Shown in pieces: positions 6,009 through 19,822 of a stretch of DNA of 32,192 nt. The stretch comes from Candidatus Methanophagales archaeon. GTDB lineage: Archaea > Halobacteriota > Syntropharchaeia > Alkanophagales > Methanospirareceae. Positions within the stretch are counted from its first letter, which is position 1, and each line of letters starts with the position of its first letter. The translations under genes were made by a program, and so were the position numbers. The notes under the pieces are model-generated. The model saw nothing but the letters and a program-made list of their open reading frames with translations. It was not told where the DNA came from and searched no databases. The DNA is taken from positions 1 to 32,192 of the forward strand of contig JAUWNY010000005.1 in the NCBI GenBank assembly GCA_030612405.1, read 5' to 3'.

Positions 6009-6770
6009 TTAAATCACCCCCGTTAATGCTAAATAAGCAATGAAAGGTATAGCGACAACTAAAGCGAGCAGAAATCCCGCGGCTAACCCGAGAATGGTAT
6101 TCTTTGATATTGCCATTGATAACTTGTAGTCCCTTGCCATCACCTGCGACTTATATCTCGCACTTTCTACCGCACCGGTGATTGTACCCATGAACGGCTC
6201 GGCAGACATAGCTAACGGTATTTTCAGTTCCGCCGCTTCTTCTTCCTCTGCTCCCACCTTCACGATCATCGGGTCTTCAGGAAAGGCACCCGGGTCTTTT
6301 GACTTACATTCCGCTACTTTCGCTTTTATCGCACCGACATCTTCTGAGCCCATCATCTCGATTATTTCTACCTGCTGTCTGAACCGCTCAACCGCTTCAA
6401 GTGGCACGTTCTCGATGAATGGTATTGCACCCGGTGCATCTACTATCTTATGCGATTCCTTGTCTATACCTTTCTCATGCAGTTTCAACAACGAGCCTCC
6501 GGTCACATGCCCCGGAACTTCTGGTCCCGTAAGGATGTAGAACCTTATGTTTGGATTGGCGATAATATTCGCTATCTGCTTCTCCAATCCAATGTTCTCC
6601 GTCTTACATGACCCCACTATTGCAGCTCCGGCAGCGAATAGCTCCTGTACCGCAGCATCGCTGAAATGACCGCCACCTGAGGAAACAGCCACGGGGTTCT
6701 TTGGATCCCCTGCCTCATAATCACCCGTCGCTACGGGCCATCCCTCTGCTGGTTCTTTTTTCTCCACCAT
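6009..6770 (-). CDS. mtrA: tetrahydromethanopterin S-methyltransferase subunit A (corrinoid protein)
   Basis: GWPVATGDYEAGDPKNPVAVSSGGGHF...TGPEVPGHVTGGSLLKLHEKGID; C-terminal TM helix. Confidence 0.96.
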   Translation of the reverse strand: MVEKKEPAEGWPVATGDYEAGDPKNPVAVSSGGGHFSDAAVQELFAAGAAIVGSCKTENIGLEKQIANIIANPNIRFYILTGPEVPGHVTGGSLLKLHEKGIDKESHKIVDAPGAIPFIENVPLEAVERFRQQVEIIEMMGSEDVGAIKAKVAECKSKDPGAFPEDPMIVKVGAEEEEAAELKIPLAMSAEPFMGTITGAVESARYKSQVMARDYKLSMAISKNTILGLAAGFLLALVVAIPFIAYLALTGVI

Positions 6771-13064: not shown

Positions 13065-13670
13065 TCAACATACTTCAAAATTCCACCATAAAACGCTTTT
13101 CGAGAAAGTTCCTTTTCTTAATTCTGATTGCTCAATTAGTTCCTTTGCTTCATCTAAAGTAAAAGCTGATTTTATCTCGTTTTCAAAAATTCCAAGCCAG
13201 GAACGCCGAAGGTCTTTTATAAAAAGGTAACCGTCAGGTTTAAGTACCCGCTCTATCTCATTTAACATAATAATGGGTTTACTAACCCCATGAACCATGT
13301 TAGTACTAAACACTACGTCAAATGTATTCTCTTCAAAGTACAATTTTTGGACATCGCCCTTTTTAAATTTTAATCGCCCTTCAATATCAGTATCAAATAC
13401 GCGGGAATTCGCATATTCTAAGAGTGGCTCTGACAAATCAATTCCAATTATTTCGCACTCCGGGATTTCTTTTGCCAGAACGGCATCCATACCCCCAAAA
13501 CCGCAACCCGCATCAAGAATTTTTCCTTTTTCAAAACCAATGGAAGCTAACTTTTTTGCGTAGTCATACCCCAGCTTTTCAATTATCTTCTTATGTTTCT
13601 TTATGTAGCGTTTAGCAAAATTCTTGTCGTTAAAGTCTTTTTTATGCTTTTTCATAATTTTTCGCCTCAC
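13065..13670 (-). CDS. class I SAM-dependent methyltransferase
   Basis: GKILDAGCGFGGMDAVLAKE motif I, IIGIDLS, FDVVFSTNMVHGV, ERVLKPDGYLFIKD. Confidence 0.85.
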   Translation of the reverse strand: MRRKIMKKHKKDFNDKNFAKRYIKKHKKIIEKLGYDYAKKLASIGFEKGKILDAGCGFGGMDAVLAKEIPECEIIGIDLSEPLLEYANSRVFDTDIEGRLKFKKGDVQKLYFEENTFDVVFSTNMVHGVSKPIIMLNEIERVLKPDGYLFIKDLRRSWLGIFENEIKSAFTLDEAKELIEQSELRKGTFSKSVLWWNFEVC

Positions 13671-13799
13671 TTATTTTTCTTTCCTTTTTCAAAAATCTCT
13701 GCCCACAAGTATTAACACTCCAAGGACAGCTTTTTTAATTGTTTCTTTCATTTTTTTTTAGTTCCATAAAGTTAATGGATTATGTGAAATTTGATTTTA

Positions 13800-14168
13800 T
13801 CACTTTTCAATTTCGGCCACATAACTGTAGAAGTCGAGTGTCCCTATATCATTTTCGTGGGCTATCTCGTTTATCCCCCATTCTGCATGATCAACCAACT
13901 TTTTCACTCTATCTTCCGGCTTTAAGTCGGGATATATACCAAGCATTATAGCAGCAAAAATTCCATCTGGGTCTAGGCTATTTACATTCTGGAACGTATC
14001 TCTTTTTCCGACTTCCTTTGTTCTCCCCTTTGCTATTCCAAGAGATGCACCTAGCCACCAGACATCTCGTTGTTCCTTAAATAACCCTTGAGTGACCAAT
14101 TGTTTCATTTGTGTTTTAGCATTGTCACTTGCAGGGATTGTTATGACTTTTCCAAAAGCTTCATTCAT
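13800..14168 (-). CDS. hypothetical small protein, last gene of the defence-like cassette
   Basis: ATG overlaps the stop of the DndD-like gene (TAATG); MNEAFGKVITIPASDNAKTQMKQLVTQGLFKEQRDVWWLGASLGIAKG... Confidence 0.65.
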   Translation of the reverse strand: MNEAFGKVITIPASDNAKTQMKQLVTQGLFKEQRDVWWLGASLGIAKGRTKEVGKRDTFQNVNSLDPDGIFAAIMLGIYPDLKPEDRVKKLVDHAEWGINEIAHENDIGTLDFYSYVAEIEK

Positions 14169-16182
14169 TATACTACCTCCCCGGCGATAGTAGGAAGTAT
14201 AATACTCCCCTCTTCTTCACCCTTATACATTACGGTTAAATCTGTTTTTATATTTCCACTTAAGTGTACTTCATCTCCTTCCCTAAATTCCCTATCAGTA
14301 ACCAGCAACACCAATTGCTTGGACATATTAGGGAGGTACTTAAGCACACGTTCTCCGTGCTTAACATCCAACCTCCCAAATGGAGTATCCATAAAAATTG
14401 GCGCTTCAACTTGGGCACATTTGTTCAGGCCCCCTACCAAAGACAATGCGACGAGCTGTTCTTCTCCTGAAGAACGCCATTCGCTCCGATTAAGAACCGT
14501 ATTTTGTTTTGTTATTATACTTAATCCATATTGGTCATTTATTTCCAGTCGATCAAAATCCTCTTTAGAACGGATCTGCTTAAATATCTCCGTTGCTGTG
14601 TTTTCTACTCTAGCTTTTTGCTCTTCTCTAAAACTAGACACGGACTTTTCGAATATGTTCCGAACTTTTTCTATAAACTCTATTTTTTTATTTAATTTTT
14701 GTAATTGATCTTTTGGAATCGAGGTTATTTGTCGATCTAATTCGTTTTTATTTTGGAGTAGTCTCAACTTCTCTTTCTCTTTTTCTTCTATTATCCCTTT
14801 TAATCTCCCAGATTCAAATTCACTCCGCCTTATTTTCATCTCCAGTTTTTTAGGCTCCTCAGCATCTACACTTCCAAGTTTAGATTGTACCTGTTCTAAT
14901 TCGGATCGTAATCGCTGAATATCATATTCAATATCAATAATTTGCTTATCTTTTTCTTTTAAATCCTTTGGAGGTATTAAAGAATTAGTCATGTTTTCTA
15001 ATGCGTTTTTACTAATCTCGAAAGACAGGTCAGGTTCTGGAATCTGAGTGAGGTGTTCAATTCTGATTTTTGTCTCTTCTAAGTCTCGTTCAAATTCGGC
15101 CAATTTTTTTGGATCCAATATAGTACCGCAATAACTGCATTTACTTTTTAATATTCCTTCCTTAAGAATCCTAGCCCGTTCTATCGCTTGTTGTTTTTGA
15201 TTATACTTCTCGAGTGATTGATTAGATTTTATTTCTAATTGTTGGATTAAGTTAGCTGCAATTGGAGCTAACACATTTTTGTACAACTCTTTGACGAGAG
15301 CACTTCTCTCATCCGTTTTTCTGCCTTTTTTATCTTCCCGATTTTTGATTTCCCCTTCTATACTTATTCTCTGATTGGCAAGATCTTGGACTTCTTTCAT
15401 ATCTGCCAATTCTCTTTTATCCGCAACAATCTCCGCATCCAGCTTACTTTTTTGGGATGCTATTTCAGCTTTTGATCTTTCAAGCTCTTCTAAATCTCCC
15501 TCAAGTATCTGCTGGAGTTCAGCTAATTCTTCCAAATCAGCACCACCGAGTTGTCTCAGAATTTTACCTCTTTCTTTTTCGAACTTCTTTTTAACAGAGT
15601 CTAAATCACTGCGGGCTGTTTTAAAATAAGGGAGACCGAGAACACACTCAATCGATTCTTTTAGCAAAGCCATAGCCCCCCTGCTATCTTCTTCTAGAAG
15701 TTCTTCGTAATCACGGAGCATTTCACCATCAAAAAAGTAGAATCGACTTATAGATGAAGGTAATATTCTCTGTATTTCGTGTTCTGGGTCAGGAACAATC
15801 CTTCCATTCCTATAAACCTCTATTACCTTTCCTTCCTCATAAATTGGTTATGATCATTATGCCTATTTGCCTGAGTACTCCTTACTATAATCCAATCCTC
15901 TCCTTCATGGATAAAACTGATTTGGACAGTATATTTGTACATATCCTTTTTCTTGGCTGTATGATTCAGTAATGAAGTTAATCTGATTTTCTCGCCTTTC
16001 CTATCACGGACCTCACCATAGAGAGCCCATAATATTGCTCGCTGAATAGATGTTTTCCCTTGTCCAGTACCCCCTCTAATGAGATGAATGCCTATTCCAT
16101 CATTCCAAAATGAGAGTTCATGGTTTCCATAAAAAGGACCAAAATTAAGCATTTCGATTTTTTTTATTATAATGCTAATCAC
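14168..16182 (-). pseudogene. DndD/Rad50-like SMC-family ATPase, split by a single-nucleotide frameshift near 15838-15848
   Basis: N-terminal ORF 15823-16182 has IKKIEMLNFGPFYGNHELSF and Walker A GGTGQGKTS; the next frame continues EEGKVIEVYRNGRIVPDPEHEIQRILPSSISRFYFFDGEMLRDYEELLEED into ORF 14168-15721, with zinc hook CSYCG, coiled coils and SSGEEQLVALSLVGGLNKCAQVEAPIFMDTPFGRLD signature/Walker B. Confidence 0.85.
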
Positions 16183-16360
16183 CTCCTCTCTGCTTTATTA
16201 ACTCCATGATCTGGTCTTGGCATCTCCCTCTATCAGAATCCAAAGGGTTCCTCATAACTAAAGCTAATATTTGTTCTAATAATTTTTCATCAACTTGTTC
16301 ATCCATCCCTTCATTCACCTTCTTCAACACCGAAACCATTTCCTCAAATTCCATAGTCAA
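16175..16360 (-). CDS. small hypothetical protein (61 aa) within the cassette
   Basis: Overlaps neighbours at both ends (helicase stop TGA at 16357; DndD-like start at 16182), consistent with translational coupling. Confidence 0.55.
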   Translation of the reverse strand: MTMEFEEMVSVLKKVNEGMDEQVDEKLLEQILALVMRNPLDSDRGRCQDQIMELIKQRGGD

Positions 16361-18588
16361 TCCTCCAATATCTCTTCCGATAGAGCTATTTCATTATCTG
16401 TAATGAGATCAGCACCGTATATATTCCCTATTTTCCATAGTTCATGAGTAATTTCAGCATTATTGGCATTTTTTGCAAAGTTCCAAGCACGAGACAACTC
16501 ACTTTTTATTACAGGCATTAAGACATCCTCATCTGTTTTTTTTGGCAATACTAATGCATCAACTATAGTAGCTATTCTTTTGCCTTTAGCTTTTCTAAGT
16601 ACCCGCCCTCTCCTTTGAATGTATTGCCTAGGATTAGTAGATGATGCAAGAATCAAAGCACCATCAACTATAGGGATATCAATCCCCTCGTCAAGACAAC
16701 GAATACTTACAATAACACTCGGATGTCGCTCAAAATATTGGATAGTCCTTTCTTTCTCCGCCTCTCTCATTTTAGAATGGTAGATGAGCACTGGCAGATT
16801 ATCATGTTTTTCACGTATTGCTTCTGCTACAGAGTTCATTTGTTCTTCATCTTCACAATAGATTAGCCATCTACTTTCTGGTTGATATCGTTCTGAGATA
16901 GTTTTGCATGCACATTCGACTTTACCTTGTGCCTTCTTTAAAATTCTGGCTCTCTTAATATATAATAGTTCTAATTTTTCAACTTCTTTTGAAGCTCCTT
17001 TAGAATCCAATACAGAAGGATTATTAGCTATGTATTTTTTTATTTCCGCAGTATTTTTGTCCCATTGTTCTAGCTCTTCCTCGTTAAGATTTACAATTTC
17101 ATAATAATAATCGTACCTAGTCAAAAATTTCCCCAATATGGGTATCTCCTCGTCATCTTCCTCTGACAATTTGACCTTTCCTCCAATAGGTAAGTTATAA
17201 ACGGGTACATCTCCGAATGTAGATTGTATCACTAAATTTCCTTCATTATCGAATAATCTCTCTGGTGTGGCTGACAGTCCAAGACGTTCTTTAAAGGATA
17301 TTCTATCTAGAACTTTCCTGAATACTGGGCTACCTATTCTATGAGCTTCATCAACAATCAAGATTGGATTTTTTGCTTGGCTTAAAAACTCTATAAAATC
17401 CCCTGAGGAACCCGTGGCCATTGTAGATATTATAATCCTTGGTTTAGCGATATCCGACACAAATATCCTTTTCATGGCATACACTTTCCAATTATGTCCT
17501 CCCCCAGCTATAAGAATTGGCACTTCGGGGAAAAACTTTAATACAATATCATACCATTGCTGTAATAAGATTTTTGATGGAACAAATATAACAACAAGAC
17601 GTCCCTGCTTAATTAAATCTAAAACGGCAAACAAAGCAGTATAAGTCTTTCCCGTTCCCGTTGCCATTGAAAGCATCCCAACACAATTATTTTTTTCCCA
17701 CGCTTCAATTGCTTGGATTTGGTAGTAGAAAGGGGATAACTTCCGCCCATCAATTTCTACTTCATAGCGGGGACGTAATTTCTCTTCAGTTTGAATATGA
17801 GTGGGGTTTCTAGCCCTAGCTCCTGCTCTACAATCCTCAAGCGTTAAGTGAGATTGAAATTTCGCTAACTCTTCTCGCTCTATTTCATTAATAGGGCGAA
17901 CCTTTGTGTGTATTGTCCCGCCAGTAATGAGTTTTTTAAAATATCTAGCTTTTGTTTCTGCCTTATGTGCCTCAAAATCATTTCCCCAACTTCGATATAC
18001 ATCAAACTCCTCATCGTTTCCCCAATCCTCAATAGATCCAACAGCTCTCCGAGTTTCATTTCCAGAGCCCGAGAAGGCTATATAATTTCCAACTGAATCA
18101 TAAAACACACCCATCTTTCTATGATATATACCGCCAGGTCTGGTTGCGATATAAAGTTCCATTGAACCTTTTTCAATAAGAAGTCGTAGCATATTTAGGC
18201 AATCATACTCTTTTGGATCTTTTGACATGTCCCTTAATACATACAACAAAGTAATTTCTTGTTCCTGCTCTGACCTTTTTCCCCTTAATTCATACCCCTC
18301 TCTCGCAGCTTCTTCATCATGTTCTGGAATATCTGGTGAGCATACTAACAGAATCTTTCCGCCATGTTTGGCAAAATTTAGTAAATCTTCACCAAGTTCT
18401 CTATAGATATTTGCCCTAAAATAACCAACCGCTCTTTCATACCTTGCAGAAAGAGCTAAGCAAGGAGAATAAAAATCGGGAATTATCATATTATCTTCAG
18501 TGTTGTATTCTGGCTTAGGCTCAAATTTACTAAGATTTAATTCTGAATTCGTTAGTCCTTTATTATTTTTTTCACTCATATATCCCAA
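16357..18588 (-). CDS. PLD-family nuclease domain fused to SF2 DEAD/DEAH-type helicase, resembling Dnd-associated restriction helicases
   Basis: PLD-like HKxG motif GGIYHRKMGVFYDSVGNYIAFSGSGNETRRA; helicase Walker A SMATGTGKTYTA, DEAH (IVDEAHRIGS), SATPERLF, and QYIQRRGRVLRKAKGK motif VI. Confidence 0.9.
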   Translation of the reverse strand: MGYMSEKNNKGLTNSELNLSKFEPKPEYNTEDNMIIPDFYSPCLALSARYERAVGYFRANIYRELGEDLLNFAKHGGKILLVCSPDIPEHDEEAAREGYELRGKRSEQEQEITLLYVLRDMSKDPKEYDCLNMLRLLIEKGSMELYIATRPGGIYHRKMGVFYDSVGNYIAFSGSGNETRRAVGSIEDWGNDEEFDVYRSWGNDFEAHKAETKARYFKKLITGGTIHTKVRPINEIEREELAKFQSHLTLEDCRAGARARNPTHIQTEEKLRPRYEVEIDGRKLSPFYYQIQAIEAWEKNNCVGMLSMATGTGKTYTALFAVLDLIKQGRLVVIFVPSKILLQQWYDIVLKFFPEVPILIAGGGHNWKVYAMKRIFVSDIAKPRIIISTMATGSSGDFIEFLSQAKNPILIVDEAHRIGSPVFRKVLDRISFKERLGLSATPERLFDNEGNLVIQSTFGDVPVYNLPIGGKVKLSEEDDEEIPILGKFLTRYDYYYEIVNLNEEELEQWDKNTAEIKKYIANNPSVLDSKGASKEVEKLELLYIKRARILKKAQGKVECACKTISERYQPESRWLIYCEDEEQMNSVAEAIREKHDNLPVLIYHSKMREAEKERTIQYFERHPSVIVSIRCLDEGIDIPIVDGALILASSTNPRQYIQRRGRVLRKAKGKRIATIVDALVLPKKTDEDVLMPVIKSELSRAWNFAKNANNAEITHELWKIGNIYGADLITDNEIALSEEILED

Positions 18589-18591
18589 CTC

Positions 18592-19647
18592 TCAATTCTT
18601 AAATACTTCTGTCTCAATACCTCCTTTTACAAACCTTCCGATTGATCCCTTTGCGTACTCTTCGTTCGGCTCTATTGAAATCCATCGTCTTCCTAATCTT
18701 TCTGCAACCGCACCGGTAACGTTACTGCCCGCGAAAGGATCCATAACCCAATCGTTTCTGTCAGTGAGAAATTTCACAAAAAACGACGCTAAATCTGCAG
18801 GCATTCTCGAAGGCTGATGCTCTAAACAATTTTCTTTACAATATTCTAAATAAGAATCTGATGAACTCGTGTTGGCGGCTATAATAACATTAGGTGCGAT
18901 AGCGCCATCATTATCTCTTGAGAAGGATTGCTCACCGATAACATGTTCGGATGGTCGTCGTCCTGAGTTATATTTCCCAGTCTTCAATAATTTCTTCATA
19001 GCGGGACTATATTCTTTCAAGACTTGACGGTTGTCTGCCTTGGGCCGAGGAGATTGGCTAAACCACCAGAGTCTCGTAAACGCATCTTTCACCCGGATTC
19101 TTTCTATTGTCACCCATTGAGCCGGTGAGGGTAAACGGGCAGGGTTGTAACAAATAAACTCTTGGCAAAGGTGAAAGTTTCCCGTCTCTTTAAATTTTAG
19201 AAAGGCCTCTAAGGGGAGAGTGGAGATAGTTGGATATCCTGGGTTCCATGCATTCCCTAATTCTATAACGATTGAACCATCAGGTGCAAGAAATTCTGAA
19301 AACAAAGTTGCAAAGCTTGATAGCCATGATGCGTACTCAGATCCTTGAAGGTTCCCATACTTTTTCTTTCTGTTCAAAGGGAATGGAGGGGAGGTAAAAA
19401 TCAATTGAATTTTTCCTTTCAGATTTTTTAAGGATTGCTTACTCAAAACTTCTTCGGATAAGCCAAGATAAAACCGCCCTTTGGGTGTTGAGTAATAGAG
19501 GCTATCGTCTGATTGAGATGTATGTTTGATTTGAGGAGATTCATTCCATATTATATTCTCATTCAACTCGGTTATTAATCGCCCATTTTTACCTTCCACT
19601 TTACTCTCCCCTGTCACACTCATATGGCTCAATCTATCAATTATCAA
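18592..19647 (-). CDS. DNA methyltransferase (N4-cytosine/N6-adenine type)
   Basis: Catalytic TSPPFPLNRKKKYG (motif IV) precedes the SAM site DPFAGSNVTGAVAERLGRRWISIE (motif X/I), the permuted order typical of beta-class DNA MTases. Confidence 0.9.
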   Translation of the reverse strand: MIIDRLSHMSVTGESKVEGKNGRLITELNENIIWNESPQIKHTSQSDDSLYYSTPKGRFYLGLSEEVLSKQSLKNLKGKIQLIFTSPPFPLNRKKKYGNLQGSEYASWLSSFATLFSEFLAPDGSIVIELGNAWNPGYPTISTLPLEAFLKFKETGNFHLCQEFICYNPARLPSPAQWVTIERIRVKDAFTRLWWFSQSPRPKADNRQVLKEYSPAMKKLLKTGKYNSGRRPSEHVIGEQSFSRDNDGAIAPNVIIAANTSSSDSYLEYCKENCLEHQPSRMPADLASFFVKFLTDRNDWVMDPFAGSNVTGAVAERLGRRWISIEPNEEYAKGSIGRFVKGGIETEVFKN

Positions 19648-19685
19648 TCTTTTATTTACACCTATTTAAAGTTACAAAATCTCAC

Positions 19686-19702
19686 ATTATTTATAACTTT
19701 CG
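19686..19702 (-). promoter_or_regulatory. Candidate BRE/TATA promoter for the MTase-helicase-DndD cassette
   Basis: Minus strand CGAAAGTTATAAATAAT about 40 bp upstream of the MTase start. Confidence 0.6.
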
Positions 19703-19822
19703 CCCTTCATCACCTGAAGAGCACAAACTTCTACGAGTAAGGGAGGGTATCGGTAAGGGCTGTAACCACGGCGTTATTTTTTATTTAAGAAGTAACCCTT
19801 ATTAAATTTGCCATAGCCAACC

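Follow-up and report, generated by a model that had tools for sequence, protein, structure and literature searches.

The five co-directional, nearly gapless minus-strand genes at 13800-19647 of our window, a 32,192-nt stretch of DNA assembled from a Candidatus Methanophagales archaeon, are likely to form a methylase-linked PbeABCD (CxC-ABC/DndE) defence set that a Methanophagales-like archaeon acquired horizontally, and that would act by the mechanism proposed below. The first-pass annotation had taken the cassette for an unnamed hybrid that matches no known system, and this part of its reading fails. PADLOC gives PbeA and PbeC, the two small ORFs are placed where PbeB and PbeD would be expected, and methylase-linked PbeABCD, with cytosine methylases replacing the phosphorothioation genes, was already published between 2019 and 2024 (PMC6459918, PMC10853773). 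According to Xiong et al. (2019, PMC6459918), 155 of 320 pbeAC occurrences without dndCD adjoin base-modifying genes. The earlier suggestion that a methylase stands in place of sulfur-transfer genes is supported, and is also a feature of the published CxC-ABC/DndE model (PMC10853773). We found no paper naming both Methanophagales and PbeABCD. What is contributed here is a defined clade, characterised by an M.PvuII-type methylase and a CxxC hook, that occurs in several archaeal families and on at least one bacterial plasmid.

Gene content and identity of the cassette

Table 1 Genes of the cassette, with their positions in the window.
Gene product	Position	Strand	Basis of assignment
N4-cytosine-type beta-class DNA methyltransferase (M.PvuII family)	18592..19647	-	PF01555, PDLC03323, PDB 1boo
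PbeA, N-terminal PLD nuclease domain fused to SF2 helicase	16357..18588	-	PDLC02707, TIGR04095, ResIII/Helicase_C
PbeB-position small protein, 61 aa	16175..16360	-	Position; sub-threshold Sp-DndD PF20306
PbeC, DndD-like ABC ATPase with CxxC hook, frameshifted	14168..16182	-	PDLC02747
PbeD-position protein, DndE-like fold, 122 aa	13800..14168	-	AlphaFold2 + Foldseek

The tight packing of the genes described in the first-pass annotation was confirmed. The ATPase starts at a GTG at 16182 and shares 8 bp with the small ORF, and a TAATG is common to the ATPase stop and the last ORF (13800-14168). The gap between the methyltransferase (MTase) and the helicase, given before as 4 bp, measures 3 bp with the TTG start. 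Chance does not account for this five-gene arrangement: four further archaeal genomes, and one bacterial plasmid, show the genes in the same order. GC content is 35-38% in the cassette region, compared to ~44% in the surroundings, and no repeats or tRNAs that would mark an insertion boundary were found in the cassette flanks. The window also holds mtr and mcr-linked genes which, along with relatives that bear the name Methanophagales, point to a Methanophagales-like host. Separately, we note a 253-aa protein uniting MtrA and MtrF domains at 6009-6770.

Profile searches bear out the domain calls made in the first pass, namely a beta-class MTase, a PLD nuclease with an SF2 helicase, and a DndD-like hook ATPase. 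The MTase matches PF01555 in Pfam (E=1e-29) and PDLC03323 in PADLOC (270 bits), while its residues 52-347, nearly the full length, match M.PvuII (PDB 1boo, E=1.1e-73). Motif IV reads TSPPF, and for an M.PvuII-like enzyme with this motif, N4-cytosine methylation is the predicted product. The true start probably lies downstream of the TTG at 19647, as the frame opened by this TTG resembles its relatives only from about residue 43-52 onwards. Despite the near full-length likeness to the PvuII methylase, a PvuII-like type II restriction-modification system was rejected because there is no stand-alone cognate endonuclease beside the methylase, whose neighbours are PbeA and the lactate racemase LarA; the restriction part would instead be PbeABCD. 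We also looked genome-wide for avoidance of CAGCTG, which could have betrayed the predicted target, but the host (count of 86) is no more depleted than its genus mates without the cassette (63, 91 and 73), a point against our reading.

The helicase is PbeA. Its best PADLOC matches are all PbeA (PDLC02707, E=3.4e-178), it carries the expected PLD (HKD) nuclease fused to an SF2 helicase with ResIII and Helicase_C domains, and both the HxK...GSxN residues (H156, K158, G174, S175 and N177) and the helicase motifs are invariant in an alignment of 10 sequences. The match to TIGR04095 (E=7e-93) scores 312 bits, below the 600-bit cut-off. Elsewhere, at L060 (7547-9187) and L147 (8548-10074), we see helicases adjoining CxC ATPases in which a PLD motif was not found, and these are possible Pbe variants without the nuclease.

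For the ATPase, PDLC02747 (PbeC) is the best PADLOC profile for both halves of a gene that is frameshifted in the window (E=1e-18 for the N part and E=3e-68 for the C part), and the protein has the DndD-like coiled-coil ABC ATPase character of PbeC, with the gene intact in relatives. A make-up of helicase, methylase and ATPase is also like that of Hma (PMC8565338). However, we give practically no credence to the cassette being Hma, DISARM or a BREX-type system, since the helicase's PADLOC best matches are all PbeA and the ATPase is a DndD-like hook ABC protein with PbeC as its best match. HmaC, by comparison, is a DUF499 ATPase (PMC12839542), and no DUF499 domain was found in profile searches of the window ATPase. 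Hma was rejected on this ground and because the methylase is of N4C type, not m5C as in HmaB; BREX and DISARM readings were likewise tried and rejected.

The 61-aa protein gave no match in the PADLOC profile search, and in Pfam a weak match to Sp-DndD (PF20306) with E=0.003 and 18.1 bits, below the 27.2 cut-off. It occupies the slot between PbeA and PbeC, where its relatives are 37-95% identical, and its position and the sub-threshold profile match make it a candidate PbeB. For the 122-aa protein, family profile searches gave no match, and nothing was found by profile-profile comparison with DndE or in a PDB sequence search. Its AlphaFold2 model (pLDDT 75) shows the same helix order as a DndE model built likewise, and the top 16 Foldseek hits to the model are all DndE (probability 0.96-1.00, TM 0.47-0.58, best E=0.008); a true DndE from host contig C63, serving as the positive control, gave E=4.5e-6. 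Judging by the modelled fold, we propose with moderate confidence that this protein is PbeD, a putative DndE cognate with two RHH domains. Assignment of all five genes to a named system, which the first-pass annotation had set as grounds for refuting its reading, is in this way largely achieved: profiles place PbeA and PbeC, fold together with position places PbeD, position together with a sub-threshold profile places PbeB, and the MTase is a published optional partner.

In the PbeABCD of Xiong et al. (2019, PMC6459918), PbeA and PbeC are accompanied by two small genes, all ordered as in the window, although the small proteins there are of 66 and 152 aa rather than 61 and 122 aa. That system is tied to DndCDEA phosphorothioation, whereas the window set is tied to an N4-cytosine-type methylase and shows none of the DndC-dependent coupling of that definition, with no DndC at the locus. 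The same absence separates it from Dnd (DndBCDE), which requires DndC at the locus; the sole DndC of this genome is on C63. With the CxC ABC-ATPase/DndE system (Rakesh et al. 2024, PMC10853773) the window shares the HKD nuclease-SF2 helicase, the small protein, the hook ABC ATPase, the DndE cognate and a circularly permuted N4-cytosine methylase, and of the adjacent m5C or circularly permuted N4C methylases described for that system it has the latter, in the form of the MTase with TSPPF. It differs in that we noticed no MTaX1-type gene, in that the methylase is specifically M.PvuII-like, and in the hook itself. The zinc hook of the window clade has CxxC instead of the name-giving CxC spacing; it reads C-x-x-C-G both in the window and in five close relatives, and CPTC in Aurantiacibacter, and the hook residues are conserved. 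Elsewhere in the phylum CxC prevails among Pbe loci, although CxxC occurs in some of them too.

The split PbeC gene

The first-pass annotation had read the DndD-like ATPase as one open gene and overlooked a frameshift at ~15,842-15,848. The gene is split into ORFs at 15823-16182 (N part) and 14168-15721 (C part), in different frames, because it differs by a net +4 nt from three aligned relatives (L041, L042 and L043) whose genes stay open there. A decayed locus, with PbeC truly inactivated and the methylase alone active as an orphan enzyme, would be compatible with the PbeABCD identity, and we judge the chances of this to be evenly balanced. The frameshift is missing in the three close relatives and its site is outside any homopolymer run, which favours true inactivation. 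However, a local assembly error could occur in a fragmented MAG, and relaxed selection is not seen, with dN/dS at 0.21 for the C part against G070 and at 0.26 between intact copies. The frameshift must then have arisen recently or be an artefact of assembly. If it is genuine, restriction has probably been lost in the sampled strain.

Recurrence, transfer and a second Pbe set

Co-conservation was assessed by searching 394 genomes of the phylum and then inspecting gene neighbourhoods. The MTase-PbeA-PbeB-PbeC-PbeD order is kept in G070 from the host's own family, in G036 (Methanocellaceae UBA148), in G389 (Methanoperedenaceae GB37) and in G336, while in G245 (Methanophagales RS_14_10) we see A-B-C-D only, on a contig starting inside PbeA. 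No DndC was found in any of these five genomes. Outside the archaea, the plasmid NZ_CP015441 of the alphaproteobacterium Aurantiacibacter atlanticus carries all five orthologues in the order of the window, with identities of 50% for the MTase, 38% for PbeA and 29% for PbeD (E=6e-17), and with the small protein in place. The plasmid cassette has the gene order, CxxC hook (CPTC) and TSPPF methylase in common with the window, but is bacterial, 27-50% identical, and bears generic annotation names only. The check on co-conservation proposed in the first pass has thus been run, and the five genes do keep together in archaea and on a bacterial plasmid.

More broadly, among the Pbe loci examined, 8/16 DndC-lacking genomes have an N4C-type methylase no more than 5 kb from PbeA, compared to 0/11 DndC-bearing ones, a count that leaves out the host itself and G245 (one-sided Fisher p=0.006, from genomes that are not independent). 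The link is not strict, as on a Methanothrix contig (L064) the 6.5 kb upstream of PbeA-B-C contain no methylase. Seen from the methylase side, the partnership is looser: methylase relatives in G039, G217, G378, G185 and G180 adjoin other genes, and for the 180-aa ORF beside the one in G378 no solved relative was found. In two members of the family to which the host belongs, at L086 (374-5330) and L087 (8985-13938), an M.PvuII-like methylase sits beside a HEAT-repeat protein and an SMC-type ATPase that is LmuB-like in PADLOC (E=8e-30), possibly a separate defence cassette. At L083 (7009-10258), where PbeA is absent, a methylase ~67% identical to that of the window neighbours a protein of 756 aa that weakly matches a GHKL ATPase.

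The cassette DNA (13789-19516) is 90% identical to G070, whereas flanking core genes of G070 reach ~67-71%. This gap, of ~90% against ~68%, shows that the cassette moved as a unit, and the sequence comparison indicates that it was acquired horizontally with the methylase included. To G245, positions 13789-18543 are 94% identical at the DNA level. Among genus mates, G288 lacks the stretch 13183-19805 altogether. In G279 (L140, 4437-5781) other small ORFs are present at the cassette site, a variable site beside LarA.

The first-pass statement that DndC is missing is right as far as the window goes, but the genome has the gene on another contig, outside the sequence given to the first pass. Host contig C63 (L040, 248-7625) encodes PbeA', a small protein, PbeC', PbeD', DndC, DndD and DndE; the 5' part of PbeA' is beyond the contig end, and PbeC' has no zinc hook. 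A MetRS with 95-97% identity to genus mates marks the contig as native to the host, and it is the only place in the genome with DndC. One Pbe set of the host genome is thus linked to a methylase and the other to phosphorothioation. As DndC, DndD and DndE are native to the organism, the window cassette might rely on phosphorothioation supplied in trans from C63, its methylase being an unrelated passenger. We find this very improbable, because the four archaeal genomes with the complete cassette, and G245, all lack DndC, because C63 is already equipped with its own PbeA'-B'-C'-D', and because the methylase moves along with the cassette and turns up again on a plasmid in bacteria.

Proposed mode of action and its meaning

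Our proposed scheme for the methylase-linked set is modelled on the published CxC-ABC/DndE model (PMC10853773) and on the genetics of PbeABCD (PMC6459918). Host DNA would be marked by the M.PvuII-like enzyme, which would set N4-methylcytosine at a short palindrome. PbeC, the hook ATPase, and its DndE-like, DNA-binding partner PbeD would together clamp DNA and scan for unmethylated sites, and on incoming unmarked DNA this complex would load or license PbeA. The SF2 motor of PbeA would travel on the DNA while the PLD domain would nick or cleave it, or else stop its replication, and PbeB may be an essential small partner or regulator. The analysis establishes what the genes are and how they are ordered, that they are conserved together and moved as one unit, and that the four genomes with the complete archaeal cassette lack DndC; we infer the modified base and target sequence, the reading of the mark by PbeC/PbeD, and the cutting. 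The restriction-modification-like logic of the first-pass annotation, with the PLD-helicase as effector and the hook ATPase as sensor or loader, is plausible and agrees with the published model (PMC10853773). In the haloarchaeal PT-linked system, all four pbe genes were required for the full antiviral effect, whereas cutting of viral DNA by PbeABCD was not observed (PMC6459918), which counts against our scheme. We found no experiment on methylase-linked Pbe in the literature.

A suicide mechanism has been proposed for the CxC-ABC/DndE family (PMC10853773). Infection would be sensed and host DNA cut or blocked, with PbeB as a brake freed by a viral trigger and with methylation having a regulatory role rather than guiding target choice. 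The small protein is indeed fast-evolving (37-95% identity), as might suit such a role. Nevertheless we regard this as unlikely, since PT-marked virus escapes PbeABCD (PMC6459918), which argues for mark reading on the invading DNA.

Finally, we lean towards viewing the clade as a cross-domain PbeABCD subtype that has a CxxC-hook ATPase clade to itself. In this subtype an M.PvuII-type enzyme would supply N4-methylcytosine as the self mark, fully replacing phosphorothioation, and one archaeon has both the methylase-linked and the phosphorothioation-linked version. Whether PbeABCD can read base methylation in place of phosphorothioation was a question left open by its discoverers (PMC6459918). 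The compact, intact five-gene cassettes of G070, G036 and the Aurantiacibacter plasmid, whose methylase belongs to a structurally known family, make the question testable in laboratory strains, and the host described here carries the methylase-linked and phosphorothioation-linked Pbe sets within a single genome.
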